From contig NW_003124905.1 of NCBI RefSeq assembly GCF_000003605.2, positions 110,006-165,595 on the forward strand: a DNA stretch of 55,590 nucleotides. Reading direction: 5' to 3'. The translations under genes were made by a program, and so were the position numbers. This DNA is from Saccoglossus kowalevskii (lineage: Eukaryota > Hemichordata > Enteropneusta > Harrimaniidae). Numbering within the stretch: position 1 is the stretch's first letter; every line of letters begins with the position of its first letter. This document shows positions 10,665 through 39,228 of the stretch, in pieces. The notes under the pieces are model-generated. The model had not been told where the DNA came from. It worked only from the letters and a program-made list of their open reading frames with translations, and searched no databases.

Positions 10665-10865
10665 NNNNNNNNNNNNNNNNNNNNNNNNNNNNNNNNNNNN
10701 NNNNNNNNNNNNNNNNNNNNNNNNNNNNNNNNNNNNNNNNNNNNNNNNNNNNNNNNNNNNNNNNNNNNNNNNNNNNNNNNNNNNNNNNNNNNNNNNNNNN
10801 NNNNNNNNNNNNNNNNNNNNNNNNNNNNNNNNNNNNNNNNNNNNNNNNNNNNNNNNNNNNNNNNN
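10665..10865. other. assembly gap (201 N)
   Basis: Run of N. Any frame read across it is meaningless. Confidence 0.99.
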
Positions 10866-15100: not shown

Positions 15101-15240
15101 AAAATATTATTCTAAAATCGTTCCACAATACTCTAATACTATTTTTTTTGTATTTTAATATATTTTTATTGGGTACTCATATTTAAAATATTTGTCTGCA
15201 CAAATTATTAGTCTATATACTACATACATAATATTTACAT
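12103..15240. other. intergenic
   Basis: Long AT-rich stretch with no supportable exon. A G-run lies near 14968 next to a small CTCCTTC/GAAGGAG hairpin. An open minus-strand frame at 14797-15057 crosses that homopolymer and is not credible as a gene. Confidence 0.4.
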
Positions 15241-15486
15241 AATGTTACGAACTGGCGAATTAATGCGGCAGGAAGTGACGTCGCTACGAAGCGTGCATAA
15301 CCAATTACAAGCCTCAGATTTAAATAATGTTACGGACTGGCGAATTAATGCGGAAGGAAGTGACGTCGCTACGAAGCGTGCATAACCAATTACAAGCCTC
15401 AGATTTAAATAATGTTACGGACTGGCGAATTAATGCAGCAGGAAGTGACGTCGCTACGAAGCTGCGTAACCAATAACAAGCCTCGG
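15241..15486. repeat. 85-bp tandem repeat, 2.9 copies, with ETS-CRE motifs
   Basis: Units start at 15241, 15326 and 15411 (period exactly 85 bp) and are nearly identical. The last one has a 1-bp loss and ends in diverged sequence. Every unit carries GGAAGTGACGTC (15271, 15356, 15441), an overlapping ETS and CREB/ATF half-site arrangement known from animal promoters, and a CCAAT box (AACCAAT). The short frames read through it on the minus strand repeat the same peptide and are repeat artefacts. Function as an enhancer is inference. Confidence 0.85.
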
Positions 15487-18400
15487 ATAGATGTGTGGGT
15501 GAGTTCACTTTTTGATCTTAAAATTAAACTATCCAACTTACCCATTGTAAAAATGTTTTTAAAATGTTGTGAGTAAACTGTCATTAACTTCATGTGTAAA
15601 ATACAATTCCTTGTTCAGTATTTACAGCGGAGTGTTTATGTTTAGTATGGGACCTTCGTTGGATGTTTTTTTTTTTCATTTTTGAGGCAAAACAGGTAAT
15701 GAAATAATGAGCTATAAGCTATAGCGCACAGACGTTAGTCGCTTGTCACATGTCACTCTTTGGAAAGTAATCAAACCCGTAAAAGGAACGCTAAATTCAC
15801 TGAATAGTGAGCGCTGTAAGCTAGGCAACTGTAATACTTTAATGAGAATCAGAAAGGCTTTACTAATCCTGCAATACATTCTTAATGATTGAATTTGACG
15901 CTTAACAAGAAAGTGGTTATACTACCCCTGGTGCTGTTGTGTGTTTACTAATGTTTGTTGACTTGAAAGCGATATTGATACGATCATGATTGTGGCTATG
16001 TAGTTTTATATATTGTGTTTTTCTGTCGAAATCGACTATCGAAATAGACACTCATACGATGTTAAGTAAAGTTCTACTGATGTCGTTGGGGGTATTTTCC
16101 GTTAGCCGCAAAAAATAATTTCCTCACAATCTCTTCAGCACAAATAGCGAAAATAAAGTATTTTACAGTATATGATTTGTTTTTTTTATGTTTTATATAA
16201 CAACTATTTAGATTTTGTTCACACTCATAACACATCCCCCGTCTCACTTAAATTATAAACGCGAATTTGTACATACGTCATTACATATGTTCGGTGTGAC
16301 TAATATACTGCCTCGGGAATGTGTAAATATCTGAATAATTTTTAAAAACGAAATTTACTAATTTAAATACTGTGATTATATTTTATTTTATCCTATGGTA
16401 TTTTATTCGCAAATTTCCCAATATTTGAGTGAATATTTAGTTATATTAAAACAGCGCGAGATGATGCACATTTTCGAACTTCAATGAAATTGTTCAGCCG
16501 TACTGGTGATGTTTGAAATTATGTCACTATGATCACGGCCCTATATGTATGCTGCGAGTCGTAAAGACTAATATTAATCCTAACTTGTAACGCTAACTAA
16601 TGGGATAACATATTCTCATCCGAAAGAAAGAAATGACGCGTAATTTCACCCACTTCAATCTTCATTGGTTTTAAGGTTTCTTTCATAGGAGGGAAGATCT
16701 ACACCGACAACAGCGACATTGCAAATGAACGCGTCGTCTCTGACGTGAAATAGGTCATTGAACCTATATATTAACATTCATCTGTTTTAGGGTGAGTGCT
16801 CAACACAAAATGAACATCGACACTTGTCAATATTAACATTGTACTATATCGCTTTGCATTTGGAGTGTAATTTAAACATCAGATAAGAGAGACGTATACA
16901 TCGTGCATGGTTGTCCTCATTTTTTTTTCAAATTAAAGGCCGATAAATTTAATCTCGTAAGATATAAAACCTCAGTAATTATGTTCGTGTTATTGCGTTA
17001 ATGAGATGAGAAACAACCGTGTGCGCTCAGAACATAAACAGTTTATGGTAAAAGAATAAAGATTAAGTCGTTTACCGATGTTCAATGAGTCGAACTTGTT
17101 AGGTCGTTATTTAAAGTACTCAGTAATCGCTTAGCGACAGAACCGTGCAAGGTAATAATAATAGTAGTCTATGCGTAGGGATACATCGTCAGTGCTATTA
17201 TTAAATTGATGTTTGGTTGTCAATATAATCAACAGTTGCGTGCTTCCCAGTATTAATCGCATACGCGCTTTCATTTGCGTAACAAAATAATCAACTATTT
17301 TATTTTTCAAAATGAACGTTATGTATGTCTGTATGGTGATGGTCGATATGGCGTGAATGTGAAGGTCGATTCTGTAAGTCGGTGAGGCACAATATAAATA
17401 GCGCTAACTGACCATGGTTATTAACTCGTAATCCGTGGGGAAAAACGAATCGCGATGTTGAAATATATTACAATCAACATCGAAAATGTCCGTTTCCGTT
17501 CGCGCTGACCGCGGGAAGTTGTCGTACACGCGCGCCAAGCTTTAATTGCGTCTACCTTAACTGCGCGTGGGCAGTAATTAATATGACGCGTGTGTCTTTA
17601 GAAAGCGCTGCCTCTAAACTGAGACACGGCAGCAATAAACAAAACACAATCTGGATTTATACACGCTATACTATCCACGGTTGTAGTTAAGTCAATCAAG
17701 AATATATTCTGATTGTCAAACACAACATTAAAAACACGTTTTTTACGATTCTATAATAAAGAGTCAAGGAAGTCAATTGTTAAAATGTGACGTAATACGA
17801 AAGATTTAATGTTACAGCTATGTCCTATCTGGAATTATAATTGTGACGTGTAGTGATATTGTCACTCGACATTTCCGCAGATGTACGTTTTCATGTTAGG
17901 AGGCCGTACAGATTAAAACCGCACGTAGGTATCACTGGCGGATCCAGAATTTTTTTTATGAGGGCCGCGCGCTTCTAATGACGAGGCCGAAGTAGACCTC
18001 CGGTGGGCTGGGTTTGTCAATTGATTTGTCTTTTTTATTTGTTTGCGAGCTGAAGGGGGAGGTACGCGTGGGTATGGCGAGAAACACAGTCTGTGCCGCT
18101 TTATGTAGTGTCGTGCAGAATACACCATTGCAACCCAAACTACTAAATATATGCGCAAAGTTGGGGCAAAATAAACGTCGCAGTTAAGAAATACACAATG
18201 ACGTTACTGTATCTAGAACGACACGGCTTAGAACATTACTTGAGTAAAGAAATAACAAGTAAACCCCGCGGCAATTTTCACTACAAAGTCCCGCCAATCG
18301 CCCCTGCACTTATTAGACTACGTGAATGGATAATACGTAGACGACATCAACTGCAATTATCTTTAAGCATTACATACTAATGTTTCAAATCAGCGTTGTA

Positions 18401-19234
18401 CGCTGAGCGAGCCCACTAACTAATAAATGATGGGGGAATCAAACACGCAATTATATGGTAAATTATTCTTGACACCGATCACCGTGGGCGAGGTCATATC
18501 ATTTATCGGACTCTGTTCGCTGTATATTTCAAGTCTTGGCGCGTTGTTTTAAAGATATTTCTATTACTCGTTAACCAAGCGTTTGTTTTCAGACGGTGTT
18601 ACGCTCGATAAAAGAGCATACATATAAAGCATGTTTTCTTAACCACATAACATCGTGCTTTCTAAGAGAGCGATGTGTTATCCTTTGAGAGATACGCTAA
18701 GAATGTTTAACCGAGAATTACATAACATGCCAGCTCGAATACGAGGATCGGGTCAGTGGTGAGTTGTTTTCAAAATAAACAAACGAGTTTCTCCCGTACG
18801 TATGAATGAAAAATGTGTTTAACAATGTAAATGAGATGGGTATTGCTACCTTCCGACGTATATCAGTCTTGTTAATAGGCGTCAAGTTCACACATACGGT
18901 AATGCTTTTCCAAATCAACCACCAAGTGTTTAGCTACCCAGTTTGCTCCACAGCCGAAACTGTAGTTGTATGGCATATACGTTCAGCGGTAAGAAGCTTT
19001 CAGCTGGGGATATTTTTTTCCCGGCATGCGCGGGTGACATATTTGCCCGATGATCTGAATGTGAATTTGTCTGGTAATGTACGTATGCGTTTTACCACGT
19101 GGTTCAATATGAATCTAGACATCGAACGCGGAAACGACCATTTCTAAATACGAGCTATATATAGACGATTTTGACTAATGACACCAGACTCATCGACCAC
19201 ACTTGTACGTAAAATTATAGCAGTATGTACTCAC
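15487..19234. other. intergenic, possible 3' continuation of the receptor gene
   Basis: If the exon at 19235-19922 is spliced locally, its next exon should lie here or beyond the left edge. I looked for an acceptor followed by the conserved continuation of the binding domain and found none I trust. At 17933 CACTGGCGGATCCAGAA plus a T-run resembles the recurring terminus of invertebrate DNA transposons. The 113-codon plus frame at 18806-19147 is chance-level. Confidence 0.35.
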
Positions 19235-19922
19235 CCCTGGCATGTTTACTGGCATCCAACAACATTAACTTGTAGTCTTCCTGTGTAAGGTAGTATTGGT
19301 CAAAATCTTGAAAGTAGGGTTCCGGGTAGCCTCGTACGTCATAGAGTTCCGTCCAAATTGCGTTAAGTTGCAGTGCGCAAATTCTCCGGTTTTGATCCAT
19401 TATATCGTCATCTGTTAGCATGGCAACGTGTTTGAAATGATAATATTCTAGAATATCAGCCAATGTTGTTTTCATATGGGAATACGAACTCATCATCCGA
19501 ACGAGAAAGAATTCATCTTTTCTACCGAAATGATCGGACATTGTACCAGCCGACAACATCGGGATATCCCAATATCTGGTGTACCTTGCAACGGGTGCAG
19601 CGGCGTAGTCGCACACTGGGCCTAAGAACACGTGGACGGATTTCCGCATAACGAACTCCATGGCACGAACGGGACCGATTGTCAGCGAACATTCGGAGTC
19701 GGTGTAATCGACCGCCAGCTCATAGTTGGGTAAATATCCATGTACACGCTCGCTCTGGACTGCAATGTCAATCCCTGGCAGCGTCATGTTTAAATTAATC
19801 GGATACTGGTTTTTCTCGACGAACATTCCTGGCATGATGACGACGATGTCAAGCTTTTCTTGAACACCGTTTGCTACCAGTGACATAAAAAACAATGCGA
19901 ACACTCCGCTCACTCGACCCAT
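19235..19922 (-). CDS. first coding exon of an ANF-receptor / receptor guanylate cyclase type protein
   Basis: Codes 229 residues plus one base. Residues 1-20 form a signal peptide (hydrophobic VFALFFMSLVA). From residue 24 (LDIVVIMPG) the N-terminal lobe of a type I periplasmic-binding / ANF receptor domain follows. It has the family landmarks DSEC (Cys78), FLGPVC (Cys104, likely disulfide partner), the W-D-I-P turn (118-121) and SAGTMSD, then FKHVAMLTDDD beginning the next strand. NMT at 45 is a potential N-glycosylation site. Known members bind peptides outside the cell and signal through a cytoplasmic cyclase, or lack one, as in clearance receptors. The frame ends after ..SKHAR at a strong donor (GG|GTGAGT, minus strand), phase 1. 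The start is the only ATG before the signal peptide. No later exon was found, so cyclase activity is unproven. A longer paralogous exon lies at 35999-37640 on the same strand. Confidence 0.85.
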
Positions 19923-22900
19923 GACAAATTACCGAAAGCGCCGAGGATACTGTGTACGAAATACCTATACCCAACGACAGTACTCTTGCTACACGACGCG
20001 ATTTGAAAAAAAAAAACGCCGCACAATCCCAACTGAATCTAAACACACTCAATAGTTTCAGTGACAACTTTCGAACGCTGTGTTCCCACGACTATCTGCA
20101 ATTAGGAAATCGACTGATTCTGCCGTGGTTGGAGTAAATATGACTTGTAAGCGGCGACCTCTTAGCGGTATACACTCGACACGAACCACCAATAACAGAG
20201 TGTGGATTACAGACCACTAGAGGGCGTTTTTTTATTGGATCACATACACTGGGCACGCACGCAAAGAGATACCTTGAGAATGTGAATATTGCTTAACAGA
20301 AGCCTTATGACAGAAATAATTGTCTGGAAGCAGACATACATGTTTTTTCCCTCTTCAATAATTCTAATTTTGACCGTCAGTATAATAACAGACTTTGAAC
20401 AATGTGTTCTTAGTACTTAGTGATTTACAAACGCCACTCAACTTTTTATTCTGTTTATGACAGGGGTGTGTGCGCATATAAAGTGCTAAGCAAAGCACGC
20501 CGTTCGATTCATAGATTTACGACCTACCTGTTTGCTCATAATTTACACAGTAAGCCGATAATATAGTATCAGATGAACTCCCAGACAGTCAATGTAATGG
20601 ACAACAATGTTTGTTTGTGAAATGTACGACACCTCGTTTATTTAAATGTAACGTATTTATGGCATCGCTATATCCATGGCGAATTGTTCCGTAATATACC
20701 ACTTAAGTGAAGAACTGAACTTTGTAAGTTTTTTTTTGTTTGTGGCAGTTTGGTGTGTGTTATCGATTGTGGTGTTTATCAGTGTTGTGATAATCATTTT
20801 ACCAGACACTCGAGTATTCCTCGGCAGGGGACTCTGAATTATTAGGTACAGTCAGGTCGGCGTCATTATGTCTTCAATCGCTAATCGATATGCGATAACC
20901 TTTGTACATTAATTAATTATATATTACGCTAATATGATGTCATTATGTGGGTTTGAGGACATCCGGTAAATACGTCTGGTGTGATCAGGGTTGAGTCGCT
21001 TAATGCTACTGTACACATTTCCTGCACTGAGTGGCTTTTCACTATTTATTAGTCACTTGTGTACACTGAAATTACACTGACCTTCAATATAATCTGAGTG
21101 TATTTTTTTTTCTCTTTCGATAATTACACGTAGTTTGTGGTTTTAAAGAAATATACCGTTTGTGCCATAGTGTAATGTACATCATAGCTGGAAATGACAA
21201 TGTCAGTGATTCAGTGACAATAGCTTAACACTTGTTGAAACCTTTTGTCAGTTTACGCCCCCCTAATTCAGTATATGAACTCCTCGACAGCCCACAATGC
21301 TAGTACATCATAGCAATTATTAAGTAGTTGAACCCCAGTGTCACATACCACAGATTCTACAATACAGTGAATGGGGAACAAGACGTCTATGTCAGACACT
21401 TAACATTTTCATTCGCTCATAAAAAAACACATTAAGCCCGATAGAAACATGTAATTTAACAGTCGCCTATATTGAATCGCGAAGTTGGACAAACGCCAGG
21501 TCGTCCGACGCAGTCGTCGCCGTCCCTCGGTGTATTATGTTTTGGTAACGAACATTACCAACTGATTATCCATTGTCAACTCACCGGTTATTTTATTGTT
21601 ACCACCAACGTCGTCCATGCTTAAAAAACGGACAAAACAATAAAAAACAAAGGAATTAAACCTCATATTTCTTGCTCATCTATATAAAGGTAAATATAAT
21701 GACTTAAAATGGCTGGCTGACGACGACTTCGGGTTTAATCGCCAAAATAATATCAAGTACATGTTCAATTTATTAAGCAGAAGTTCAATTTGCATTTCCG
21801 TCACAAGATTAAAAAAATCGGAAATCACTGATAACTGTCCGCATTTTGAAAGAAGTATACGCAGAGCGAACACAAATGTGAAAAAAAAATGGAACATCGT
21901 GACGTCGCTCGGAATTCTACGAGCCTGCCGGGCAAGACTTTACGTCATGACGACCGGTCATACCGCCCATTGTGACTCCAGCAAGTTCAAAAATCGTTGA
22001 ATTTGCGTCGAACCCAAGCACTAGGTTCGACTAAAAACACGCACACATTGAAGTACGAACGTCAATACCCAGACGGAACCATTGAACATATCAAGCCCCG
22101 GCCAGTATCAGTTTATCGAAACGTGCCTCGCAAATTAGGCAAACTAAATACACAGAAAACCTCGAGATACAATCTGGCTGATAATCTTCTCTTTATAGAT
22201 TTTTACAGCAAGTCACGCAATATATCACTATTCAGTGTGCGTGTCAGATACATCATGGCTGAACACTATACGAATCTCAGTCTGAATGAGTTTCACGTAA
22301 TATAAACATGCAGCCTTAAGGAACAGTATAACGCAGGTAAGGTGAACATACATCGAGTGTTTATTCACAAAATATATCTTTATTCTTTCTACAAATTTAC
22401 AAATTATTTTCCACCTATCAATAAGTAACCCTCGGGGGACACTTTATTTTTTCGATAACTTTCTTTGGTGGGAAGGGATTTTATACAATGTCATTAATGC
22501 ACTAATCTCCAAGAATTAATCCGTAATATATTATGAACAAATTCCGTGTTTTGCCATGCATTCACCAATAGTTAAATCGGATTTTATTTTAATTGAGATT
22601 CCTAGTATATCTCTTTGTATACCATGAATCTCGTGTAAACTTTCGAATAGTCCAAGGCAACTCAAAATCAAACCATTCTGGCTGATGGACACCTGTCAAT
22701 GTAAATACAACAAAATAAACGAAAAGAATTTAACACGATTCAATAGAATAAAAGCAAAGGTTAGTTATATCACGGTAACATTTATTTGATAATGAACAAT
22801 GTGATTTTGTAACCATGACATTCGTGGGTGCTAAACAACATTCAGTACTATTATTTGACATTGATAACCATTTTATTATTGAATCTGTCAATTTCGGTGT

Positions 22901-23804
22901 TCAGCTTGAGGAGGCAATATCTTCGTTTTACATTGTATTACAATGCATATCAGTTATCTATATTTAACAAATAATGTAGGTATAATTGGATTATCTATTT
23001 AGATCATATTTTCTGTGCTGGCAATATGTGCCCGCGATCCCTGCCGAAACGTTCACGCATGCTATTTCTCCTGTGATGTGTACATTTCTTGAATTAATAG
23101 AAGAATGGCAACTCAGTAACTCACTTATCTAATACAGTCACTAACATATTATGCACACAAGACATCTGGCGACGAAGTTGAGGGATATATCAAAACTGAA
23201 ATATGGCTTTGTGTGGACGTCAAAAGTGAATTCCAAACAGATGGTAGCGGTAATTACCAATGACGACGTTTCTATGCATCGGTGAAAGAGGCAACAACAA
23301 TTTGCACAATTTGTCGATGAATGCAGAATTGATGGAAACGACTTGCATGAAAAGATGACGCAGAGGAAAAATAAACTGTAGTTGTTATGATTAACAGAGT
23401 AACTGATTAGTTTTGACGAAGTTGCGTATGTTCTCAGGGAAGTGATGAAATAAATAAACAAACAACGAATGTGGCGCAAGTATCACAGATAACGATCAGC
23501 GATTAAGTTAATAAACAAAAAAAAAAAGCTATTTAAACAAACAGGATGAGGAAAAGCTACGGAGAAGCCTGAGAACACATAGTGATATTTTCATTGACAA
23601 ATTCCTTAAGTAAAACTAAACTTGCTACCAAAATAATCGTTAAATTGTTACAATTGAAGTATTTATATATATTACAGGCATGGAAAAACAAACACAGATC
23701 TCTTTGCGTTGTGGAGTAATTAACATTTCAAATTCATGCTGGCAAGATAAACAACACAGAACGGTGTAGATTGATAACACTCAGGCTTTTCATTTACATT
23801 AACG
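19923..23804. other. upstream region of the 19.9-kb receptor exon and intergenic
   Basis: The minus-strand promoter of the receptor exon should begin here. I see no clear TATA box, and the 5' UTR is not delimited. Two back-to-back plus-strand frames (21761-22000, 21997-22305) look protein-like but have no splice sites or family match. The minus frame 23141-23479 is likewise unsupported. Confidence 0.35.
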
Positions 23805-23959
23805 TTAAAGCGGGGGAGTCGTCACCTGCGCATGCGTCAGATGGCCATAGCGTGTCATTGTTTATAAACAATGAGCCTTTGCGTTGTTAGTGTATGTTGT
23901 TATCGTCGCTTGGGACTCAATTCCCGCGCGCGCGCAGGTGACGACCCTCCCGCTTTGAA
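23805..23959. repeat. MITE family B, copy 1
   Basis: A 155-bp element with ~30-bp terminal inverted repeats: TTAAAGCGGGGGAGTCGTCA at the left, and at the right the reverse complement ending ACCCTCCCGCTTTGAA. The arms contain CTGCGCATGCG, an NRF-1-like palindrome. The interior holds TTGGGACTCAATTCCCG. It is ~80-90% alike to 32447-32613 by eye. The tips resemble family A (TTAAAG, GTCGTC), which suggests one mobilising transposase. Confidence 0.85.
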
Positions 23960-25544
23960 TGTATGTTTTACACTACTGTCCTGATTATGAACGCAACGTA
24001 TACGTACTTGAGTCCGTTGTATGCGTGTATAAAACAGACGTTTCAAGTAAATTATATTGTCATCCACGGTGAGCTTACATGTTCGAATTTGGAGAATAAC
24101 CGTCAGCATACCAAACAACATATTAGTAAGCTACGTGCAGTAGGTAATAAAGGATTCGATCTGAGTTGATGATCGCATGTCATCGTCTTTATGATTTCAT
24201 TATTATATGTTAATGCCATTCGGATACCGAAAATGGAAAACAATAAATTGGTGTCACCGAACTATTTTTAGAGAAACAATATTCTATGAGTCATTGACGT
24301 AGTCCCCGTTTGTTCTATAGACGCAATGTATTTATGTAAATATGTGTTAAACTTAAACTTGATTTGTGACCGCCAGTCAGCCATTTTGGATTTGAGAGTG
24401 ACAAAAATATACGTGCGTTTGTATAATAAAATGGCTCGTGTATATGACGAATGTATATGTCTGATGACGAAAATTAGTTGACATGTATCAATATTCCATC
24501 GTGATTAATGTATGTACAAATTTATTTCCCAAATCCTGACACACCCGACTGAGATCCGGCTCCGGAATGGTGAAAAAGTGTGACTCTGATGCATTTTAGG
24601 TCTTAAAATGGCTGCCATTCGATGTGTCTGTGAAATTTGAATATAATCGGTCCAAGCGTGTACGGGATACGGCTGGATAGCGGCGTACGATTGTCAATCA
24701 ATAAATCCTCGTGTTTTGGATTTTGTCTTCGTTTTTGTTTTCTATTACATGTACATACGATTTATTCATTCCCATAATGTATTGAATATCTGTGTAATAA
24801 TATGATCAGTAGGCTGAGCACAATTTTAAATCGGCTCAAAATCAGCACGATACTTTTTTAAAACACTGAGCATGAATACAACTGTCGAGAGACGCATTCT
24901 ATTTGGCAGAACACTAAACTACTAGAGAAAGTGAAATAACATCTTCTTACGCATATTTCCATATTTCACTGGATAACATAAGAAATACTATTTTACATTT
25001 AAATGTGTTACGTGTCGCATAATGTAAATACGACATGCATTATTTTAAAGTTTAAACCTGGAAAAAAAATATCATTTTCTGGTTGTTTTTAGCCATTTAA
25101 TCACAATCAAAATATGTTAATAATACTCTAACTCAACCTCTCATTTATGCCCATTAAACCTATCGCCAAACGTTTCACTTTGCGATTTAGGTAACACGCA
25201 AACACAAGTTTAGTGAAGAGCCGGGAATCCCTGATGATATTTAGAAAGTTGATTTTTAAGCATACGTAAGTCTGATAACTGGGGAGCAATTGGTATAGAT
25301 CGACCTTATTGACTGAAAGGCCTGTACATCGAACTACATTTTGCTACCAAGTAACTGCAATGAACCAACCAGCAGGAATAGCTGAGACATGCACAACACG
25401 AATACGATCCGATAGCGGAATGTAAGAGCACTGCACTCCTAGTACATTGGACGTATCGATTTTTACAATGTGAATACAATATATTCAACATCAGTTTATT
25501 TATTTATGTCACGGGGTTTGGGTCAACAAATAGAACACGGGTAA
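23960..25544. other. intergenic, nothing convincing
   Basis: AT-rich. Two AAAATGGCT-type motifs (24430, 24606) are isolated. No exon could be supported. Confidence 0.4.
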
Positions 25545-25964
25545 AGTGCGTTATCCTCGGGGGCGGAGCTACGTCACGGACGTTCTACGTTGCTAAGACG
25601 CGCACCACTGTACCACGTATTTCTATGGGCTTTGTGCGCGCTGCTGTGGAACGCCGGTGGAGCCGGTGAAAACTCGAGAAAACAACACAAACTCAACTTT
25701 GAAATAATCCCGAACAACCAAATTCATATATGTTACACACGTAGGGCTAATCTTGTTACACTGTTCAGGGGACTCTCAACAACCATCGCAAAGTACCGTT
25801 TTCTGCGAGTTGTTGGTCTTTGTTTTCACCGCGAGGGTTGCCAGGCGGTAGAAAATGCCCGGATGTCCGCCCCCGAGAATTGGTACTTTGTCATTGCTGC
25901 GTCGGCCACATCAATTCTTTGGAGTCCGACCGGACAGTGTAATCGATACATGACGCACCTCTGA
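25545..25964 (+). CDS. candidate exon for a secreted Cys-containing protein (weak)
   Basis: A GC-rich frame open from 25545 to a stop at 25962-25964. It contains a signal-peptide-like stretch (HVFLWALCALLWNAGGAG) followed by ~95 polar residues with five Cys (HICYTRR, GLCFHREGCQA, GQC). The order signal peptide, then a KLNFEII strand, then KYRF and a C-x(5)-C loosely recalls the start of the ANF-binding exons, but conserved GP-x-C and W-x-I-P are missing. No in-frame ATG precedes the hydrophobic segment, so a start would have to come from an upstream exon. A stop-to-stop frame of this length can occur by chance. I do not recognise the family. Confidence 0.22.
   Translation, partial: SALSSGAELRHGRSTLLRRAPLYHVFLWALCALLWNAGGAGENSRKQHKLNFEIIPNNQIHICYTRRANLVTLFRGLSTTIAKYRFLRVVGLCFHREGCQAVENARMSAPENWYFVIAASATSILWSPTGQCNRYMTHL
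25559..25600 (+). promoter_or_regulatory. possible CpG-rich core promoter motifs
   Basis: A GC box (GGGGGCGGAGC, 25559-25569) directly abuts TACGTCA (CREB/ATF half-site) and is followed by GTTGCTAAG, an RFX-like half-site. The cluster lies immediately before the open frame at 25545-25964 and actually overlaps it. A role is inference. Confidence 0.25.
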
Positions 25965-28045
25965 GACTTTTAGAATGTTACAAGCGAAATACAATGCTGG
26001 GAGAGGTGGGTTTTTAGAACGTAATCGAACCATGTCTTAGTTTTTAATGTTAAAATAGTTCCTAAGACGTCGAGGGATGTGGAATGTGTACGCACGTCGT
26101 TCAAATATTGGGCTTACGGAAGTTGAGCTTACATGTGCCCGACGTGCAACATCCTGATCACTCTGAAAATGAGAAGCTGCCGTGGGTGTGATCAACATAT
26201 CATGAATTGGAAATAAAACTGAAAAACATTTCTGAACACGTGACTCTCTCTTACAACTGTATAAATTAATGATACATGTATTTGAATATAGAACTGACAC
26301 TGGCCAAACTAAGACATGTGTGTCGACACAACTGTATTTTCATTTTTATCAAACAGGAAAAAAATATTTCGAATCACATTATTATGTTTCTGTTTGATCA
26401 TGAGGTCAAAAGATCTGAGTTACCGTGAGTCATCTCGAAGGTCACTCATAAACCGAGGCCTTTATATATCACAATTGACTACAAAGTTATTTTCGATTGG
26501 TGTTAAAGTGAAGATTGAGTTACAAAACGCGCCCTCTCACTTGAACAAATATTTTGCGATAGAGGGCGCAATTGTGATTTACAGCTTGAGTAATGAATCC
26601 AATGTACACGTGTCAACCAATTTACATCGAGGTTTCCGATAAGAACACTTCCGCTAAGAATTATTAGTTTAATAGTGTTTTGTTGGCACTGTATGTCGCC
26701 AACATCGCTAAGCTGCTTAAATTTCCCGATAAAATACACACAATTTTCTACATTGTTCGCGTACGTTCTAAAATACACATAAATTTCTGCATTGTCCGTG
26801 TACGTTCTTGGTTGAAATCAATCATCACGATCGATCGTTTTTTTGTCTAGCATACCTGAAGGAATGAGAACCAAACATACAGCCAAATTCATCTACTCAA
26901 CTTAGTGTGTGATAACTATACCAGTTATTAATTTAAAAAATATACGTATCAATTATAAACACGTGTTTTGTTAGTATCTCCCCGATCTTACCATTCATCG
27001 ACTTCTTTTTTAAAGACACGTACTGAATATGCGTCTGATTGGATATACGAAACAACAATTGCAATGTGTCAAATCCTCGTTCAGTCCCGTGTAATCTCTC
27101 TTTATCTCGTTTCCTTGCAATATCAAAATGAATAGAAACTAATCTGTTTCATTTTACTGACTCTCGATTGAAGATATCCACCAACAACGCCAAGCTTTAC
27201 TCATTATTAAAGCTAGCTGACAGCAATAATGTTACCCACTACTTATATGTCTAATATTACAGTTAATGTTTTTTATTCTGCCAGGGTTTATTGTATTGCT
27301 ACGCTCCCGTTACCACGCCGACTCTCCACCTAATATCGTAGTTCTCACGACCCGTTCTTATTGCCAGGTTATCCCTACAAAGTGTGTAATTGAAAGATTC
27401 CAGCATGCAAAAATGCGTCCACAAGGGAACAATTCTCATACCATTACTCACTTATGCATTATAAAGACCATACATTCATACGTGCGAACATGTGCGGTTG
27501 TACATAAATGTGTATGTTTCGAATTTAATAGTCGAATCATAATCGATGGTTGAGACAAATTACTCGTTCAAAACGTGTTATGTTTTACACTACGCATGCG
27601 TCAAACATAACTAGGCGTTGTATAATTAACCACCACCCGGTAAGATTTACTACAAATTATGTATATTATTTCAACATTACAACTGCCTGAATACATCGTT
27701 GATCATCAGTGATTGGCCGCGAGCGTGTTATTACTTAGACAGTATACCACAATTTTTCATGTTTAGAAGTAGACCCAAACAACATTATTTTACGATACGA
27801 ATATACTTGTTTTGTCATAGTTTATTTGTATTTCTATGGTCAATACACAAACTTTGACATTAAATATGTCCGAAATATTTATTTACAGAAATTAAATTAA
27901 ATTAAGCCTAACGATTTCTTTTTACCTTTGACGAGTCGGGTAGGTAAAGCTGGGCACCATCCATTAAACATCCGATATATAATTATGGTTTTGATTATGT
28001 GCAGATAGCACAAAACGTGGGAGACAAAAAAATGGTTATTTCGAA
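25965..28045. other. intergenic with small repeats
   Basis: Contains a hairpin with GCGCCCTCT/AGAGGGCGC arms (about 26527-26569), a 39-bp tandem duplication (26731-26808) and a 9-bp-stem hairpin at 27577-27611 (GTTATGTTT ... AAACATAAC). Frames at 26037-26300 (-), 26316-26642 (+) and 27266-27553 (+) are chance-level. Confidence 0.4.
26731..26808. repeat. 39-bp tandem duplication, two units
   Basis: AAAATACACACAATTTTCTA..CGTACGTTCT is repeated at 26770 as AAAATACACATAAATTTCTG..TGTACGTTCT with a few substitutions. Confidence 0.8.
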
Positions 28046-28227
28046 ATGTATGTCTTCAAGATTTCTGCCGTCAACAGTGGTGGGCGAATAAGTTTTAAAC
28101 GCGCATCGGAGACTGACAAATATTTATCAAAGTGCTTGCATGTTTCCGTTGTGTGTCTTCCTCTTGGTATAAGAGAAGAGTTCAGACACAAGGACATTGC
28201 AATCACCGCCAGATTTTGTAAAATTGT
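28046..28227 (+). CDS. candidate 5' exon of a small unknown gene
   Basis: ATG at 28046 opens a 60-codon frame (MYVFKISAVNSGG...) that runs into a good donor (TTGT|GTAAGT) in phase 2. The exon at 29076 begins with exactly one base before a codon, so the two join in frame (366 nt including the stop, 121 residues). The peptide is mixed and not low-complexity, with no signal peptide, membrane segment or family that I recognise. The opposite strand is also open for 93 codons here, which weakens the case. Confidence 0.22.
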
Positions 28228-29075
28228 GTAAGTTAGTAACTGTGGAATATGAATTTCATTTCCTTCTTGTGTGTTCTGCATATCAAATGCTGAAGGCACA
28301 ATTCCGAATGATTTCAAATTTCAATTTTTATTACGCTCCACAAACACTCGTATATTACGTGACCTGTGTACTTTTATTTTTGAGGCACTACGTATAAGAA
28401 AAATACGAATACACTAAAGCAATAAAGAACATTTGACTCACGGGTATTAGAAATGCACGAGAAAACTAATTTTTCATAACTACACAAGTTACTTGACTTG
28501 ATTTTTTTCCTCTCAAATAGTATTCCATTTCTCCCGTCATCGGGTCCAGTCTTTCACTGATCATTATTATAGACAATGTTATTAGGATCATTGAACGCAA
28601 TGACAGGAGAATGGAACATTAATGTAGGGGCGAAAACAGGTTTCAAGGTTCTCTCGCTCTCAACGAGATCTCGGAGTTTATGTGCGTCTAAGATTTGTCT
28701 AAAATAATATAGTTAGTTTCTCGTGTGTGAATTTAGTATATTTATGTTTCGGGTTTGACAAGAACACCATTACTATAGTACATCACAGTTAGTATTTGTC
28801 AAAAAAGTTGTAACAGACAATTAAACGACAAGAAATAGACATAATATAATATACATAATATCGTACATAGGTATAATGCACTACAGTATATAAATTATAC
28901 ACTTATGAACGCTGTTTCTTAAACGTCAAAAACATTTTATTTTTATTCCAGAGTAAACCGATTACTTCCGAGTACCTAACGACGTAATTATCCACCACAA
29001 CACATTTCTTGTATGCATTTAATAAGCAAATCTAACATCAGCTGTCTCTGTGATTAGTTTTACTTTTATATACAG

Positions 29076-29259
29076 GTGTAATACAAAACTCGACTTAAGG
29101 ACACGGAAATGTCTATTTGACTCCAATTTCTTTGTTTCCGACTGTCTGTCTCTCAGTCACGACAATTTACTTATAGAACAGGATAGAACACTTCGCGATA
29201 GTATCGATATGATTGAAGTAAATGTTTCTCCAAATAACCTAACATTGGTTGAGCATTAA
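29076..29259 (+). CDS. candidate 3' exon of the same small unknown gene
   Basis: A pyrimidine-rich acceptor (TTTTACTTTTATATACAG) precedes 61 codons (CNTKLDLRTRK...) ending in TAA at 29257-29259. It is charged, with a C-x(10)-C and LLIEQDRTLRDSIDMIEV, and no recognised domain. It abuts the truncated 3' end of the LINE on the other strand, so the exon may be LINE-flanking or LINE-derived noise. Confidence 0.22.
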
Positions 29260-29302
29260 TGAAGATATATATTTGCAGTAGCTTCAGCGAATAGCTAATG
29301 CA

Positions 29303-29850
29303 TCATTTAAAGCCAAAAGCACAAAGAGGAAATCGACCACATTCGCCAACAGCCGATACATCGTTTCTGTTATTACTCACATCAAGTAGAAATTTACAAA
29401 ATTGACTCTGAACTTGTACAATTTGAGGAGCGTTCTCATAACCACAAATTTCACTATCATATAAGATTGGCACAATGATGGGGTCATTTAATTTAAATGA
29501 ATCAGATATAGTCATACCACATGGTTTTCAAATCAATACTTTAAGTTGAAATTTTTTTTTCTGTGATGATTGGTTTTACATTAGCCGTTTTCCATGTCTG
29601 AATGAAAATAACACACCAAGATACTTGTAATATGTGACAACCTTAATACAATGATCACAATAAAACCATTTTTCGCTTTGCTTTAGATAACCACCTCTGC
29701 TAAAAATAAATTATCTGTGTTTTGTTCTGGTTTAGAGGTAGACCCTAGTGAAGAAAGCAAAATTGGTGCACTTTATTTATTTGTCGGTGAGTGTGTATTG
29801 TCATATCAGAACCCACGGCTATGTCATCCGCGTACATCAAGCTAAATGTA
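29303..29850 (-). mobile_element. LINE relic, C-terminal part of reverse transcriptase and downstream
   Basis: Read on the minus strand from 29845 there is LMYADDIAVGSD (the Y-A-D-D catalytic box), then LPLNQNKTQIIYF after a stop, then PIILY/LYDSEICGYE and GECGRFPLC (29515-29303), all in the order of animal non-LTR retrotransposon proteins. Stops and frameshifts separate the blocks, so the copy is dead. The sequence is truncated just beyond 29303. It is a different copy from the LINE end at 55.1-55.6 kb. Confidence 0.75.
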
Positions 29851-30223
29851 GTAAATAATACAACCTTTACGTGTCTGAAAATGCATTTAAAGTATTCAGA
29901 CCACCAGATGAAATTACACAAGATTGCAACTGAAATTACTGTACATTAAAGTGAACCTTAAATGCGGCGTTAATTTATAGTTGTGTATATTCTAAACTGT
30001 ATTCGAAATAATATTACAGTGGTTTAAGTTTGTTTTAATTATAACTGTAGCTTGGATAAGCATTTGAAGTGCTTGCAATTAAACACCATGGAGGCCATTC
30101 ATGGAGGGAAATAAATAACGAACGAACATATTTAAAATCCGGGTACTTTTCAAAGCTATGACGTTTTAGTATCTGATCGCATTCGTATACGCCATTGTAC
30201 ATAGCCGTTCATGCTGCCAAGCA

Positions 30224-31050
30224 TTGTGTACTACTAGTATAAACTCAACTTTTATATACACAATGTGCTTTTTAAAACTTGGGTTAGAGCCTTATGCGTT
30301 TGAACCACAGTATTCTGAGAGTGAAAGCCCAATTGCGTTAAAGTACCGTACTTCCCCCGATCGTAAGTCCCTCTCGAGTATGAAGCCCATTCCTATATTT
30401 TTACTTGGTATTTATCGAGTTGAGAGCATTCACGATTATAATATGCGTGTAAAAGGTGGGTTTCATTTCATAATAATCGTGATTGGCATGGTAGTTTGGT
30501 TCATGCTTTTAGTTTTAGTCCACTGTTTCCTCACAGACCTTACCCATTATTTCACCGTAAATTCAGATGGTATGTAAATCGTATTGTAATAAAATGTGTG
30601 TGTTTTTATGAACATGTTTGTTTCTTCATTGTAAGTGTCGTTCAAATCAATGACGCATTTTTAAAAAAAATAAGTATTATTTCCCCGAGCCCGGCGTGGT
30701 GAACGAATGACTTTTTTGGATAATTTTCCCTTGCGTGTTCATGCCTCCGGGCTTATGATCAGGGAAGATTCTGTGAAGATTCAGATCAGTCCAATGTGAG
30801 TGGTGAGAGTATATCGTCGACGATGCCCCTTGTTCGGATGATAGTTTTATTCCAAATTACACGGAAGTCTGTGAACAATCTGCTTGGTGTTCATGTGACA
30901 CTTGTCCCATGATTTGCCAGTGTAGCCCCGTGAATACATGGACGAAAATGTTTCCACCATCACCCTACGAACTCAAGATTGTATACTCCGGCATCTATAC
31001 TTTGAATAATTTGCACGCCGCACAGTGCAGTACTGGAAACAGCATTTATT
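30224..31050 (+). pseudogene. relic resembling P2X7-C-terminus-like transposon protein
   Basis: The frame at 30224-30577 contains LEPYAFEPQYSESES. About 570 bp later another frame (about 30810-31050) reads an Asp/Ser-rich stretch (DDAPCSDDS) followed by WCSCDTCPMICQC. A Y-x-F-E-P start, an acidic/serine linker and a W-C-x-C-x-x-C..M..C-x-C cluster are the order of the P2X7-intracellular-domain-like proteins found next to many invertebrate and fish transposons. Stops and shifts lie between the blocks, so it is broken if real. It sits between the two halves of a LINE on the opposite strand. The assignment rests on short motifs. Confidence 0.28.
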
Positions 31051-31249
31051 AGACAGTTAGACAAAAAACAAAACAAAATGCCTGGCTCGATCAATCGCAC
31101 ATCCATAATGTTTGTATGTTGATACGCTTGTAAATAACATTAACGTAAAAGTCGAAACAACCTCGACTAGAAGTCAATTCACCAGTCCAGCCAACTATGA
31201 CTTCCTAAGTTGCTTATGTTTAATCAGATACTATTTCGTCATCATGCTT

Positions 31250-32230
31250 TGTTACCTTACCTGTTTATACCTCACGAGGGCGTTTTTTATGGCAAGATGG
31301 CGCAAACGGAAGTCCTTCGCAGGTTTATGGTTTCTCATATTTAAATCATCATAACTCTGAAGATAATCATTTTTTTTTATTTTTTTTTTCAAATTTATAA
31401 TCAATATACATAACTTGATAAATACAAACACCAAAATAGGCTCTATTTTGTTCCCCTTTAAGCAAATAACCGACAGGAATTTGGCATTTATATCATATTT
31501 GATTAGTTTCGACAACAAAATATCGTGTTGAATCGAGTCAAGCATCTTGATTTCTTTGTCTGTAGTGTGAACACGTTGTCATTTCTACTGTAGTCTCGCC
31601 GAAAACCAGATTGTACTATTTTTATTTTAACGACACCCGAGGTCCAGACGTTAATTTATTTTTTTTTGTTAAAATCTTACTTTTTAAAGCAGGAATTGTA
31701 ATTGCTGACATGAGAACGATCACCCGTTTTATGTAGTGGCGAGATAATGGCTTTGCAGGTGAGATTGGTTTGTTCAACAGGCCATGAAAATACTTGTACA
31801 AACGGTCAGATTGAATTTCATTGGTTAAGGGCGCATCACTATTGATATTTCTACATATTGTTGTGACATTATTATTAGCAACTCTATAAGTGGCCAATAT
31901 CTGACGATATTTGAATGTCTGAATTTTATTAGGACATTATATTTTTTCTAGTTTAGCTGCGCTGCATTCTTTATCCTTCCACGCTGATTGGGATTGGTCT
32001 CAGACACGAGATTTATTAGTTGACTTCATTTCCGATGCAGCGTGACCAAATATTTCACCCAGTAAATGTATGTCTTGGTCTTGATTATTCAGAGTGATAT
32101 ATTCAGAGGCTTGTGCAAGCTGTTGTTGCGTGAACTCATCATTCATACGACTAATGAATAATTTAAGTACCGATGTTTTCCAGTTGAAACGACACCTGGG
32201 TGTAGTGTAGTTATCGTTACACTTCCTGGT
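31250..32230 (-). mobile_element. LINE relic, linker and N-terminal part of reverse transcriptase
   Basis: Minus-strand blocks in order are QQQLAQASEYI (linker), SAWKDKECSAAKLEK (the W-x-D-x-E-C-x-x-A-K motif common before animal LINE RT domains), ATYRVANNN, and LDSIQHDILLSKLIKY (RT block 3, equivalent to the usual F-D-S-I-x-H-x-L-L). At least one in-frame stop and several shifts are present. The 5' endonuclease is absent. With 29303-29850 it forms one element, but the ~1.6 kb between LDSIQHD and YADD is much longer than a normal RT domain, so something is inserted. Confidence 0.7.
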
Positions 32231-32446
32231 TTATTTTAGGGTGGAAAAGATCATCAACATCATGAAACTACTCTGACGATAAGATACCATGGTGATTTAC
32301 ACAAACGCCGTTATTGGCGAAACACGTGAAATCGCCGCTTCTATTTCCAATATAACGACCGTTCGCAGTATGAAAATTATTTCTCACACAGTAATTATTG
32401 CAATATATTTCAGACTGTTACAACGACACATGTTCAAAGATTTCAT

Positions 32447-32613
32447 TTGAAGCGGGGGAGTCGTCACCTGCGCATGTGTCAGGTGGCCATAGCGTGTCAT
32501 TGTTTACAAACAAGCGTCTACCCATAAGCCTTTGCGTCCTTAGCGTGTGTTGTTAACATCGCTTGGGACTCAATTCCCGTGCGTGCGCAGGTGACTACCC
32601 TCCCGCTTTAAAA
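32447..32613. repeat. MITE family B, copy 2
   Basis: Starts TTTGAAGCGGGGGAGTCGTC and ends ACCCTCCCGCTTTAAA. Its interior, shared with copy 1, includes GGCCATAGCGTGTCATTGTT and GCTTGGGACTCAATTCCCG. It is 12 bp longer than copy 1 (GCGTCTACCCATA insertion). Confidence 0.85.
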
Positions 32614-32989
32614 CCTGTTTTGATCAGTTGATCACATACAGGCAAATCACAATTCACAGTGATCACCGTGAGTAGTGTGATCTCGAATCAGTTAGATATT
32701 TAAGCAAGTTTATTCAGTTCGCGAACAAGATCCCATATCTTCTAGCGCCATTTATAAGTTATACGACTTTGCTTCAGCCAATCAGATGGCTAGATTCAGA
32801 CTTACGATGCTGTAATGCAGCACAATGCAGTAATAAAATCCAACACGAATTTTACAATCGACAGTAATAATCATATATTGAAAACATATACAATTTGAAT
32901 TCCATTTTCATCTCGCGTTGCTCTATGTTTATATGAAAAATACATATGTTATTTTGTGTAAATCTCAAATAGTTTATTTTCAATAATTG

Positions 32990-33003
32990 GTTGCCATGGA
33001 GAC
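32990..33003 (+). promoter_or_regulatory. RFX X-box-like site
   Basis: GTTGCCATGGAGAC matches the two-half-site X-box of RFX factors almost perfectly. GTTGCCATGGTT at 34276 and TTGCCATGGTGA at 34801 are partial versions. Function not shown. Confidence 0.35.
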
Positions 33004-34924
33004 ATGGACTTTATTGGGCAACGTTCTCAGGGGTAGTAATAATTGGGTTTTAGAATCCATATCATGACCAGATTATGGTTGCAGGGTGTTATAAAACTGT
33101 ATGAATACAAGGGTATTTAGGTTATTCTATCATGTATATAATTATTGAGGGTCATCACTTGAGGCGTAGAGGATATTCTACGTGCAAACAATCTCTAAAC
33201 ACGCATCAACGAAATAAATCTCCAATTACTAACTTGATATTTCTTGATGCCTACAGCGTGTCCGGATTAATTTGCAACTTGGCATTCTTAGGTGAACGTT
33301 TCCATTTATATATATATTTCTATACAGCAGTGCAAGCTTGAAAGGATGAGGAGAACAATAATTTATACATATTTGAATAATCACGTTTGGTATTTTGGAA
33401 ACCCGACTTGGCTCTCAGAATGTGTTCACGTTTTGCATTTTTGAAACTTTTATCCTATATGTAACTGCCTGGGATACTTTCACGTGTGACAATTTTGACT
33501 TGAGTAAAAAAAAAATATCTTTTTTGTACGTTTATAACTTGCTTACTTTAAATGCCACACGTACAAGTCAAAATATACAACTGTCCATTTTTGCATTTTA
33601 AAGCCAGATTACAAGCTTTGAATATGAAAATGCGGAACCTGCATTTCACAAATAAAAATAAATAAATATTAAATCAGCTTATGTGAATGGGTCGTTTCGT
33701 ATTTAGACTTTTTAGAATACATATTTAAAACGGTCTAGACAGATTTGTCAGGGGGTTCAAACAAAAATGCTCGACTCATTGCGCCTATGGGGCGCAAGGA
33801 ATGGTGTCGGTGCAGACCTCGCCCCCATGCGAAAATGTCGTGCCGCCGCCACAGTGTATGTGGTACTGTCCACAGTGTACGTAATATCACCATTGTCGCG
33901 GGGAGTAGCGGATTGTCGCTGAATACTAGTATTAGAACATTTTTTAGAAACTGGAAATAGCGCATGAAAACGTTATTGCTGGTGACGTCATGTACGCTGA
34001 TGTGAGGGCGTGTGTAATAGGGTCAGTCTGACTACAGTTACATTTAGCGCAGTATGCTAATAAAACAAAAATAAGCCAAGCAAGCATGGACTTCTGCCGA
34101 TTTTTTAAATAATTAATCACGTATTTAATTAATTATTTAACTAATGACGTAATGTGATTACTTATTCATATTCGGACAAATAAATAAGTAAATTAGGATA
34201 CCGCAGACTATAGTGTCAATATAGCCAGGTAGTAATACCGAGGCGCGACACAAATTCATAATTTTACCTTATTCGGTTGCCATGGTTTAAAACGATACTG
34301 TGCTTCGGTGGTTTTCTCAGCCATACGTCTAATATAGTTCTACAGACAGCCTGATTGGTCCAAACTGTCGCCAAGACGCATGAATGAACTAAACGTTCAA
34401 AGCAGTATAGTTATTGCATACGTAATCCACAGACTCATGCAATTATTACTGTTAACGTATGTGCATAGAGCATTGCACGAAACTTGTAGAATAAGGCTTT
34501 CAAAATTGACTGTTGTTTAAAGATTCCAAATCATCGGTAAGTCTTTAGTAATAATCGGAATTAAAATGAAACCTTCTAATCGCCGTCTTAATCAGAATTT
34601 GGATGGAATCAATCAACGGGCACCCAGCGCGGCATACTGGTAATTTGACCAGCTCGTCAATAGTGTACATGACGCTCGATATTACCCGCCGTCATTACCG
34701 AGCCAAACACCACAACCAACAACTATAATATGTTACACCAGTCGTATTTACAATTGCCAAAATAGCGGCGTCTTTCGGGCAAGTATTTTATCTCCATCAA
34801 TTGCCATGGTGATTGCAATGAGATGCACAACATAGCCGTATTACACGTCGTCGACGTTACAATTCAGCATTTTGTCACAATTGCCATTAATCATTCACCT
34901 TAGAAGACAGTGTGCATATGTAGG

Positions 34925-34957
34925 CGCTCGCGCTTTTTTACGTGTTGCGCGCGAGCG
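34925..34957. repeat. CpG-rich hairpin
   Basis: CGCTCGCGC (34925-34933) pairs with GCGCGAGCG (34949-34957) across a 15-nt spacer, in a CpG-dense patch unlike the surrounding AT-rich DNA. Confidence 0.6.
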
Positions 34958-35998
34958 GTTGCGTGCGCAGAGAGTGGTTGGCAAGAATCAGCCGCTCACA
35001 GCCTGAGCCGACGACAACATATCGACGTTGTTTGTTTTCATCGCTATTAGATATATAAGTGTCTCTGTTTATTAAACAACTCACGATCAACGTTATCAAA
35101 TCACACACAATAATGGCAATAATGAAAACATATGACGTCACAGTGCGACGGCCAATATTCTTCAAACCATGGTTACCAATCATACACAGAAAATTTAATT
35201 TTTTACCTGATTTCTAGGCATAATTATCAAGTACGTGTCAAAGTCAAAAGATTGTATGTGAAGGTCTCAATTCAATATTGTTAGCCCGATTGATTTATAA
35301 ACACTCAATATTGTACTGTAGTAGGAATTACCTCGTAATTACATTCAATCAAAGAACGTACATAAATAAAAGTAAATTCTGGTGTCATATATAGTATATA
35401 TTATAGTCTAAATGTCATCAATAAAAAGTTATAATCCAAAGACAGTCTTTTTTTTTTTTAAATTTGAATCCGAGGCCGCCTCTAAAACCAATCCTAGGTG
35501 GTTAGTCAGTTACTATTAAAATTAGACATATCGTAGGTTAGGCCTGTTGTTGAATATCTGTATGATTGGGTACCATCAATACAAATACGACTACGAATGC
35601 TACTCTTTGCGAGTATGTAATATTATCGGCACGCGTACATATACACTTAACGAGGTGGAACATTCAATTTAATTGGATGCAAAATGACACTGCGCGGAGA
35701 ACCAGCTAAATCGTCGCATAAACCTGCCATTTACGTTATACATTTACTGACTTCTAGGGATTCAATACGGTAAACAAACTCGAGATATTGTGTGAGCGGG
35801 TCATTGGTGTAATCATCGTACAATTCTTATGATCTTTGTTTACGTGAGCGTATTTAAGTTTTGAATCGGTAGGCGGGCAATTATAGCAGACGCAGGCACA
35901 TAACAATCAACACTTATGTCAGCTCGTAGTATACAAAATTGCAACGAATGTTCGCACAACAGGTTACAAATTACAAATTACAAATTAAATGTACCTAC

Positions 35999-37640
35999 TT
36001 CTCGATATTTGCATCGTCTTTCTCATCATTGCACCCACATAATTCTCCACATCTGCGTTATTTTCGTCAATTTTCAGGTAATCAGCAACTATCAAGTTTT
36101 CTTTTCTGGCTCCATCAAAAATCCCGTCTGCTCGGACCACCCACTCGAAAGAAAGCGAGGAAATAAGAATAAATCTATTCCAATCATAGAAACGGCAAAT
36201 TTCGACAAAAAAGTTGCCGATTTTTTCCATGGCTCCCCACAAGCGGGTAAGAAGAGGGTGACCAACTTTGTCTCCCAGATATGAAGCGCCGCCAACACCA
36301 GTCAGTATTGGGATGTTCCAATGCGAACATAATTTAGAGCAACTGGCGACTGCTAGTGAACAAGCTGGGCCAATCGCGGCGTGGATATTACCCTTAAGTC
36401 GTATATAAAAGTCGGCTAAGATACCAACTGAACGTATATCAGAACACTCAGTGTCAAATACAGTGTAGTTTAAAACAAAATTGTATTTTGAGTGAGTTGC
36501 ATCCATCGCTATTTCTATCGCAGGAAATGTTCGACTCCAACAGAAAGGTCGGAAGGTGTTGTAGCGTTCCGGTAGAAACACTGCCACATTCAGTATTGGG
36601 TTTGTGTTTTCAAGAGGAGTAGATGTTGTTACAACATCAGTCGTCGATTTAATGTTGTCTTCGAAATGCTCGGTAGAGTTCAGACTGGTATTTGTGACAG
36701 TGTCGAGAGACATGTCCGTAATGTTCAAGTTTTCAAAACCAGTGGCTGGAGAGGTTAAGGTCAATGAATTGGTCTTAGTCGCGGCCACCACATTGTCACT
36801 GATTAATGTTGTGGCGTGTTCATGTCCTGTTGATACCGACGGCGATGATGTGGTCGGAGTCTGGACTGTAATTGAAAACGTAGTGTCATTAGTGAGTGTA
36901 GTAGCGTTATTTGGTCTGGTTATCAACGGTGATGGTTGCGGTGTCTGTTGGACGTCGGGTTGCAAAAGTTCTGTCCCGTCAACGGTACTCAGATATAAAG
37001 AACGAGAGACATTTTCTTCTTTTTCTCTGTTATCTTGAGTGTTATTGATATTGTCTGTTAACCCGTTCGATGTCACACTGGGCCCAGATGCATGGTTTGA
37101 ATCAACAGTGGCAACAAGATCCACCAATGATAACGTTGAGATAGTTGCCGATGTCCTCAATTCGACGTCGGGGTTGTACACGTCACTTGAAAACATTGTG
37201 GTTACGTCATTCTCAGTCGAATCTTTCGTAATAAATTGAGCAACATTGCTATCGTGGTTGTTTGTCTCATTCGAGTGGGCACTGCTCGTTGCACTCATTG
37301 TGATACCCTGCGACGTAGTTTGATTACCTGGTGAATATTCCGACAACTCGATGTCTAGTGTGTCCGTAATTGCAGTTACACGGTTAGTGTTAATGTCAGT
37401 AGTATTTTTTCCATCGGTTGTCATAGTCGGTGGTTGAATATCAGTATATTGCGAGGTCCCTGCATTGACTTCTCCGGTGCTGTTGACACCCGAATCTGCA
37501 GTCAATGCGGTAGCTTGGACACTTCCGATCGTTGATCGAATTGAACCAACACCTTCAGTTATCGGTACACCCATGCGTATTTCAACCAACAGATAAAACA
37601 CAGCTATCCACAGTACATCGTGTAACCTAAAAGATATCAT
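35999..37640 (-). CDS. first coding exon of a mucin-stalked ANF-receptor type protein
   Basis: The start is taken as the ATG at 37640 in GTCACCATGA, the best Kozak context, directly before the signal peptide (ISFRLHDVLWIAVFYLLVEI). An upstream in-frame ATG is possible. It encodes 547 residues plus one base. Residues ~25-345 are Ser/Thr/Asn-rich with many N-x-S/T sites and almost no Cys, a mucin-like stretch. From ~348 (ILNVAVFLPE) the ANF-receptor ligand-binding domain begins, with FDTEC, AAIGPAC, HWNIPILTG and the strand NRFILISS. The exon ends after ..MQISR in phase 1 (AGAA|GTAGGT). A second possible donor lies 4 nt further (GTAG|GTACAT), but phase 1 matches the exon at 19235-19922 exactly. 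ANF receptors normally lack such an N-terminal extension. It presumably acts as a glycosylated cell-surface spacer. No further exon, transmembrane or cyclase region is seen. Confidence 0.85.
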
Positions 37641-39020: not shown

Positions 39021-39228
39021 NNNNNNNNNNNNNNNNNNNNNNNNNNNNNNNNNNNNNNNNNNNNNNNNNNNNNNNNNNNNNNNNNNNNNNNNNNNNNNNN
39101 NNNNNNNNNNNNNNNNNNNNNNNNNNNNNNNNNNNNNNNNNNNNNNNNNNNNNNNNNNNNNNNNNNNNNNNNNNNNNNNNNNNNNNNNNNNNNNNNNNNN
39201 NNNNNNNNNNNNNNNNNNNNNNNNNNNN
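39021..39228. other. assembly gap (208 N)
   Basis: Run of N inside a TA microsatellite. Confidence 0.99.

Follow-up and report, generated by a model that had tools for sequence, protein, structure and literature searches.

Exons A and B are two first coding exons on the minus strand of a 55,590-nucleotide stretch of the genome of the hemichordate Saccoglossus kowalevskii (NCBI RefSeq assembly GCF_000003605.2, contig NW_003124905.1, positions 110,006 to 165,595 of the forward strand). This stretch, the window, lies in a contig of 528 kb (C1740 below), and the genome searched comprises 572 Mb. A and B appear to be members of a large exon family, here called "head" exons, that serves natriuretic-peptide-receptor-like receptors. 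With slightly less than even confidence, they are read here as alternative first exons that may share a downstream set of exons lying to the left of the window. The layout that this reading supposes is found on another contig, C3981, where two first exons stand before a single downstream set that ends in a cyclase.

Exon A opens with a start codon, followed by a stretch resembling a signal peptide, and goes on to encode the N-terminal half of an ANF_receptor domain like that of natriuretic peptide receptors. Pfam family PF01094 matches A at residues 59-177 (79.7 bits) and B at residues 373-531 (65.1 bits), in both cases in the N-terminal half of the model only and against a cut-off of 25.4 bits. 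B begins like A, with its own start codon; in both exons the likeness to a signal peptide is judged by eye. The closest PDB match by sequence is NPR-C for A (1jdn, 1.5e-18) and NPR-A for B (3.7e-13). BLASTP aligns A with B at E 1e-11, with 34 of 153 aligned residues identical (39/196 in a second alignment). Chance resemblance is ruled out by the Pfam scores, the PDB matches, and this BLASTP value. An in-frame stop lies three codons upstream of the A start. A preliminary description of the window had placed two ANF_receptor first exons here, both stopping after an Arg in phase 1, and both are present as described. The pair has the traits of variable first exons, i.e., homology, a start codon and signal-peptide-like start (by eye) in each, and the same phase, and the pair on C3981 has them too.

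Exon B is intact and has no close relative; its nearest neighbor in the tree is the C1740 first exon at 524 kb (C1740_524m, support 56). Between signal peptide and binding domain, B carries a long extension that is unique among the 18 first exons read. This extension is 32.5% Ser plus Thr, has 11 N-glycosylation sequons and 0 Cys, and gives no Pfam match at E<=0.001. It resembles a mucin stalk placed at the receptor's outer tip. The donor of B is weaker than that of A, and its form, AGAA/GTAGGT, also ends the paralogue at 384 kb (C1740_384m). The AlphaFold model of the binding-domain half of B has a mean predicted local distance difference test score of 33 and is unusable.

Contig C3981 was read from 201001 to 229000; a gap of 50 bases interrupts this stretch, and it lies between exon 2 and the lower first exon. 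Its two first exons lie ~7 kb apart, and no exon-2-like frame at E<=1 was found between them. One exon 2 follows the lower first exon, and the set ends with kinase-like pieces (PF07714, 34.5 bits, cut-off 23.1) and then a cyclase. The sole other exon-2 match on C3981 at E<=1 is at chance level (0.75) and lies beyond the cyclase. Either donor (A/GT) joined to the TC of exon 2 gives Ile in frame. The two first exons are 59% identical and are sisters in a tree of 20 sequences, with support of 100. Their dN is 0.31 against a dS of 1.6-2.0 (non-synonymous and synonymous divergence), and with dN so far below dS neither looks like a decaying copy and both appear to have been long kept by selection. 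Alternative first exons are the simplest account of C3981 and, judged from its sequence, probably the correct one.

Read from the layout, A and B would work in the same manner. Each head exon would bring its own start codon, a signal-peptide-like start, a putative promoter, and the membrane-distal half of the ligand-binding domain. Transcription would begin at either promoter, and after splicing to one downstream set the receptors would differ in their sensor half but have the same signalling body. The remainder of the binding domain would be encoded by the common exons, along with the membrane segment, the kinase-like domain, and the cyclase. The head exons of at least contigs C3981, C1297, and C562 appear to run on into a guanylyl cyclase. 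B and A would stand in a row of this kind, and its constant exons would lie beyond the left end of the window.

The interval between A and B holds no recognizable exon 2, as the preliminary description had also reported. The window has two runs of N, at 10665-10865 and 39021-39228, so the 19.9-36.0 kb interval is without a gap. Domain searches were weak on short exons: of 35 fragments, each 40 residues long, that served as a test, they recovered 11 at E<0.01, and an exon-2 profile was therefore used instead. The profile was made from six exon-2 sequences, those of NPR-A and NPR-C among them and the others from the genome, and each left-out member was recovered at E<=4.5e-6 (6/6). Its best match in the window has E 1.2, or E 2.2 after addition of the C3981 sequence. 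Pfam found no exon 2 on the minus strand at ~1-37 kb or in 10 chosen open reading frames (ORFs) elsewhere in the window; tblastn and hmmsearch with NPR-A/C on both strands and an acceptor scan found none in the window. The C-terminal half of the binding domain, the transmembrane segment, and the kinase-like and cyclase domains were likewise not found in the window. No exon 2 of its own was thus found for B within 36 kb below it or for A within 19 kb, save for the 201-base assembly gap at 10665-10865. Consequently, a B transcript that is spliced to an exon 2 of this family must run past A. A codon-usage scan for further exons was given no weight, as its model scored negatively in cross-tests of A and B and so does not carry over from one to the other.

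The exon boundary is common to the family. GT stands at the phase-1 point in all 18 first exons read (A, B, and 16 others), after Arg in 17 and after Lys in one. The last base of the exon is A in 12, G in 4, and T in 2, and an in-frame stop lies upstream of each of the 18 (for B, counted from inside the exon). In the tree alignment, each exon was cut at its Arg, or at the Lys in C562, which imposes phase 1 there by construction; the GT check was made afterwards. At the matching point, NPR-A and NPR-C read GR/V and ER/V in an alignment whose last residues are loosely aligned. Vertebrate NPR genes have their first intron at the same point. The preliminary description had drawn attention to the shared boundary and had offered alternative first exons or tandem paralogues as its explanation. 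As proof of sharing it is ruled out, for the 18 exons that have it include the four of C1297 with their own exon 2. The boundary is kept whatever the gene layout and cannot tell alternative first exons from paralogues.

Exon 2 in three C1297 genes has 43 codons including the split one and encodes Ile-Ile/Val, then a VRxLML..YDKG block. That of C562 is longer, at ~105 codons. The start of exon 2 after the acceptor is TC, TC, and TT in the three C1297 genes, TC in C3981, and CA in C562. A donor ending in A or G, joined to an exon 2 that starts with T, gives Ile or Val. The expectation that the A and B split codons would be completed in this way fits four of the five genes read, three of them from the one C1297 cluster, and fails in C562.

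ANF_receptor has at least 117 matches in the genome (Pfam; 115 of 195 candidates scored), and these include other receptor classes, e.g., mGluR-like exons, by eye. C1740 has 11 matches including A and B, all in the N-terminal half of the model. For the cyclase family, the genome has 103 matches. Two of these are on C1740, both on the minus strand at 334-338.7 kb; being close together on one strand, they are taken as one gene. Next to them are a third cyclase piece and a kinase-like piece that scores below threshold. Parts of C1740 are N, and cyclases there could be missed. On the minus strand, the first exons at 384, 463, 510, and 524 kb are upstream of the cyclase, and the one at 313 kb, B, A, and the one at 60 kb are below it. 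The plus strand has first exons at 216 and 236 kb and, close to where the contig ends, a partial match at 527.7 kb. In the N-free part from 500001 to 524500, two first exons are present and no exon 2 was found, a pattern that the B-to-A layout repeats.

A and B might also belong to clearance-type receptors that lack a cyclase, as NPR-C does. This is unlikely; it is compatible with the other readings, and its probability is not to be summed with theirs. NPR-C is the best PDB match of A, and no cyclase was matched on C1740 below 334 kb, which would mean little on the A/B side of the contig if the receptors were of this type. N stretches could hide a cyclase, a four-sequence test does not resolve A with NPR-C, and a clearance type leaves the missing exon 2 unexplained.

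The first exons at 60 kb (minus strand) and 236 kb (plus strand) of C1740, loci L016 and L018, are 76% identical, with dN 0.15-0.16 and dS ~1.2-1.4. No plus-strand cyclase was matched on C1740. Values of dN/dS for the minus-strand pairs 463/510, 384/510, and 313/384 kb (463m/510m, 384m/510m, 313m/384m) were saturated or undefined and were not used. A wider, tentative possibility is that the receptor guanylyl cyclases of S. kowalevskii are built combinatorially from rows of head exons. Each head would have its own promoter and code for the outer half of the ligand-binding domain, and all in a row would be spliced to a single set of exons for the other half of the binding site, the membrane anchor, and the cyclase. 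Where no cyclase was matched on the strand and contig of a head, as for the two plus-strand heads of C1740, the constant exons would then be reached from very far away or in trans.

A further account is that A and B are tandem or dispersed paralogues that start separate genes, where the first intron of B contains A or the other exons of B have moved. This account is possible but rather doubtful. In its favor, C1297 has four first exons and four exon 2s (4/4), with cyclase pieces after three of the four. On C562, C1516, C1875, and C1345, first exons and cyclases are paired one to one by position. Long first introns occur as well, with exon 1 of C562 at 182 kb and exon 2 at 153.5 kb. A and B are also strongly diverged. 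Set against paralogy, the first intron of B would exceed 36 kb and hold another intact first exon of the same strand, and the other layout exists at C3981. The family seems, on these contigs, to use both alternative first exons and one-to-one genes.

Several of these observations weigh against alternative first exons for A and B. C1297 shows ordinary tandem genes within the family. A and B are only 20-22% identical, and the tree, which makes sisters of the C3981 pair, does not do so for these two; the four-sequence test decides neither for nor against such a grouping. The lower donor of C3981 is weak, which counts against equal use of its two first exons, and the lower exon could be less used or unused. 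C1740 mixes strands, and its plus-strand first exons cannot feed a cyclase on the minus strand. The parts of C1740 that were read yielded no exon 2 for any of its first exons; next to the cyclase, in what could be read of 334-364 kb, the best exon-2 match has E 0.34 and is on the wrong strand.

A duplication or rearrangement could have orphaned at least one of the two first exons, leaving it without functioning downstream exons, but this is decidedly unlikely. First-exon matches do outnumber cyclases on C1740. A has two relatives on C2725, 81% identical, and one on C3689 that is split over two reading frames, which would fit orphaning. The C2725 relative at 33 kb matches A at 88% over 635 bp of the exon, and the adjoining flanks have no match. 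Both frames are intact (229 and 547 codons) and have possible donors. Moreover, dN/dS between A and this relative is ~0.29-0.38 over the whole exon and 0.25-0.36 in the binding-domain part. Such purifying selection makes an orphaned A unlikely, and by this measure A appears to be in use; B lacks a close relative with which to compare it. The preliminary description had favored either distant common exons or orphaned duplicates. The first has gained a precedent in C3981, and the second has lost ground for A.

One end of the match between A and the C2725 relative (19226-19860) is ~9 bases beyond the donor, and the other is at the signal peptide; the signal peptides differ. Exon-wise gene conversion or constraint on the exon only could be the cause of these abrupt ends. 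The A-like exon of C3689 (67981-68683), whose two halves match in different frames, is a broken copy or an assembly error.

Two further contigs have more first exons than matched cyclases. C2725 carries three first exons and one matched cyclase, with two of the three upstream of it; the ~31 kb below an A-like exon there are mostly N, and only ~8 kb is readable. C355 has two first exons and one weak exon-2 match (E 0.09), and no cyclase was matched on it in the genome-wide cyclase-family search.

Table 1. Features of the window and of contig C3981. A slash marks an exon boundary. Donor ranks are relative to the minus-strand GTs and come from a position weight matrix (PWM).
Feature	Position	Strand	Remarks
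First coding exon A	19922..19235	-	229 codons + G; ends HAR/G, phase 1
Signal-peptide-like N-terminus of A	19863..19922	-	~20 residues; judged by eye from translation
Splice donor of A, GTGAGT	19229..19234	-	GGG/GTGAGT; top 0.14% of minus-strand GTs (PWM)
Interval between A and B without exon 2	19923..35998	-	free of gaps
First coding exon B	37640..35999	-	547 codons + A; ends ISR/A, phase 1
Extension of B	36600..37568	-	~323 residues; Ser/Thr-rich, Cys-free, mucin-like; between signal peptide and binding domain
Binding-domain half of B	36000..36599	-	Pfam and PDB matches
Splice donor of B, GTAGGT	35993..35998	-	GAA/GTAGGT; top 2.8% of minus-strand GTs (PWM)
C3981 upper first exon	ORF 228654-227875		donor GTAAGT (good), A/GT phase 1
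C3981 lower first exon	ORF 221249-220386		donor GTAATG (weak), A/GT phase 1
C3981 exon 2	within 212567-212337		TCAG/TCATTATT; E 2.2e-7, profile not trained on C3981
C3981 later binding-domain exons	209.4-208.7 kb		after exon 2 and exon 3

The rest of the window contains mobile-element remnants and repeats. A Tc1/mariner-type transposase fragment is present at 40865-41455 on the minus strand (Pfam HTH_Tnp_Tc3_2, 37.1 bits). Reverse-transcriptase-like fragments lie on the same strand at 29706-29858, 8316-8600, and 55247-55588; Pfam gives RVT_1 at E 0.0016 for the first and zf-RVT at E 0.038 for the last, each below cut-off, and the one at 8316-8600 was judged by eye, without a Pfam match. A segment of ~313 bp (25561-25873) matches C2725 at 85%, out of line with the exons, and is probably a dispersed repeat. 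An 85-bp tandem repeat in three copies (94% matches) is found at 15233-15488. The whole window (1-55590) is 37% GC with a CpG observed/expected ratio of 1.15, and thus has no sign of methylation-driven CpG loss.

In the clustered protocadherins, the variable exon encodes ectodomains, whereas a head exon would code for no more than the outer half of a single ligand-binding domain. The proposed layout is otherwise like theirs, in that rows of variable first exons and a set of constant exons produce cell-surface proteins, as passages of PMC1885805 describe. The same passages describe the vertebrate UGT1 and UGT2A clusters, where variable first exons in tandem are spliced to common exons. UGT1 resembles the proposed layout in that each first exon encodes a signal peptide and an N-terminal recognition domain (PMC1885805). 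The UGT clusters differ in that their products are enzymes and their splicing is described there; here the products would be receptors, the splicing is inferred from layout, and A and B are 20-22% identical.

NPR-A, NPR-C, and the receptor guanylyl cyclases share the ANF_receptor domain with A and B, the kinase-like and cyclase domains with the sister gene on C3981, and, in the NPRs, an Arg-Val at the point where the first exon ends. In contrast to them, first exons here outnumber the cyclase genes matched on C1740, C2725, and C3981, and B has its 323-residue Ser/Thr-rich extension. The nematode expansion of receptor guanylyl cyclases is also lineage-specific and arose by intrachromosomal duplication (PMC1435932). 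It differs in being described as gene duplicates, and the terms 'exon', 'splic', and 'tandem' are absent from the main text of that paper. Venus kinase receptors are invertebrate receptors with a Venus-flytrap ectodomain, as portions of PMC2680970 describe; they differ in carrying a tyrosine kinase, where the C3981 body carries a cyclase. No report of a receptor guanylyl cyclase with variable first exons was found in the literature searched, most subscription journals being outside its scope.

The binding domain of natriuretic-peptide-receptor-like receptors is a two-lobed fold. If A and B are alternative first exons of one receptor, swapping the outer lobe alone would diversify ligand recognition without altering the signalling body, comparable to what UGT1 does for substrates. 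Such an arrangement would explain the excess of binding-domain first exons over matched cyclase genes on C1740, C2725, and C3981. It would also make automatic gene counts unreliable at these three loci.

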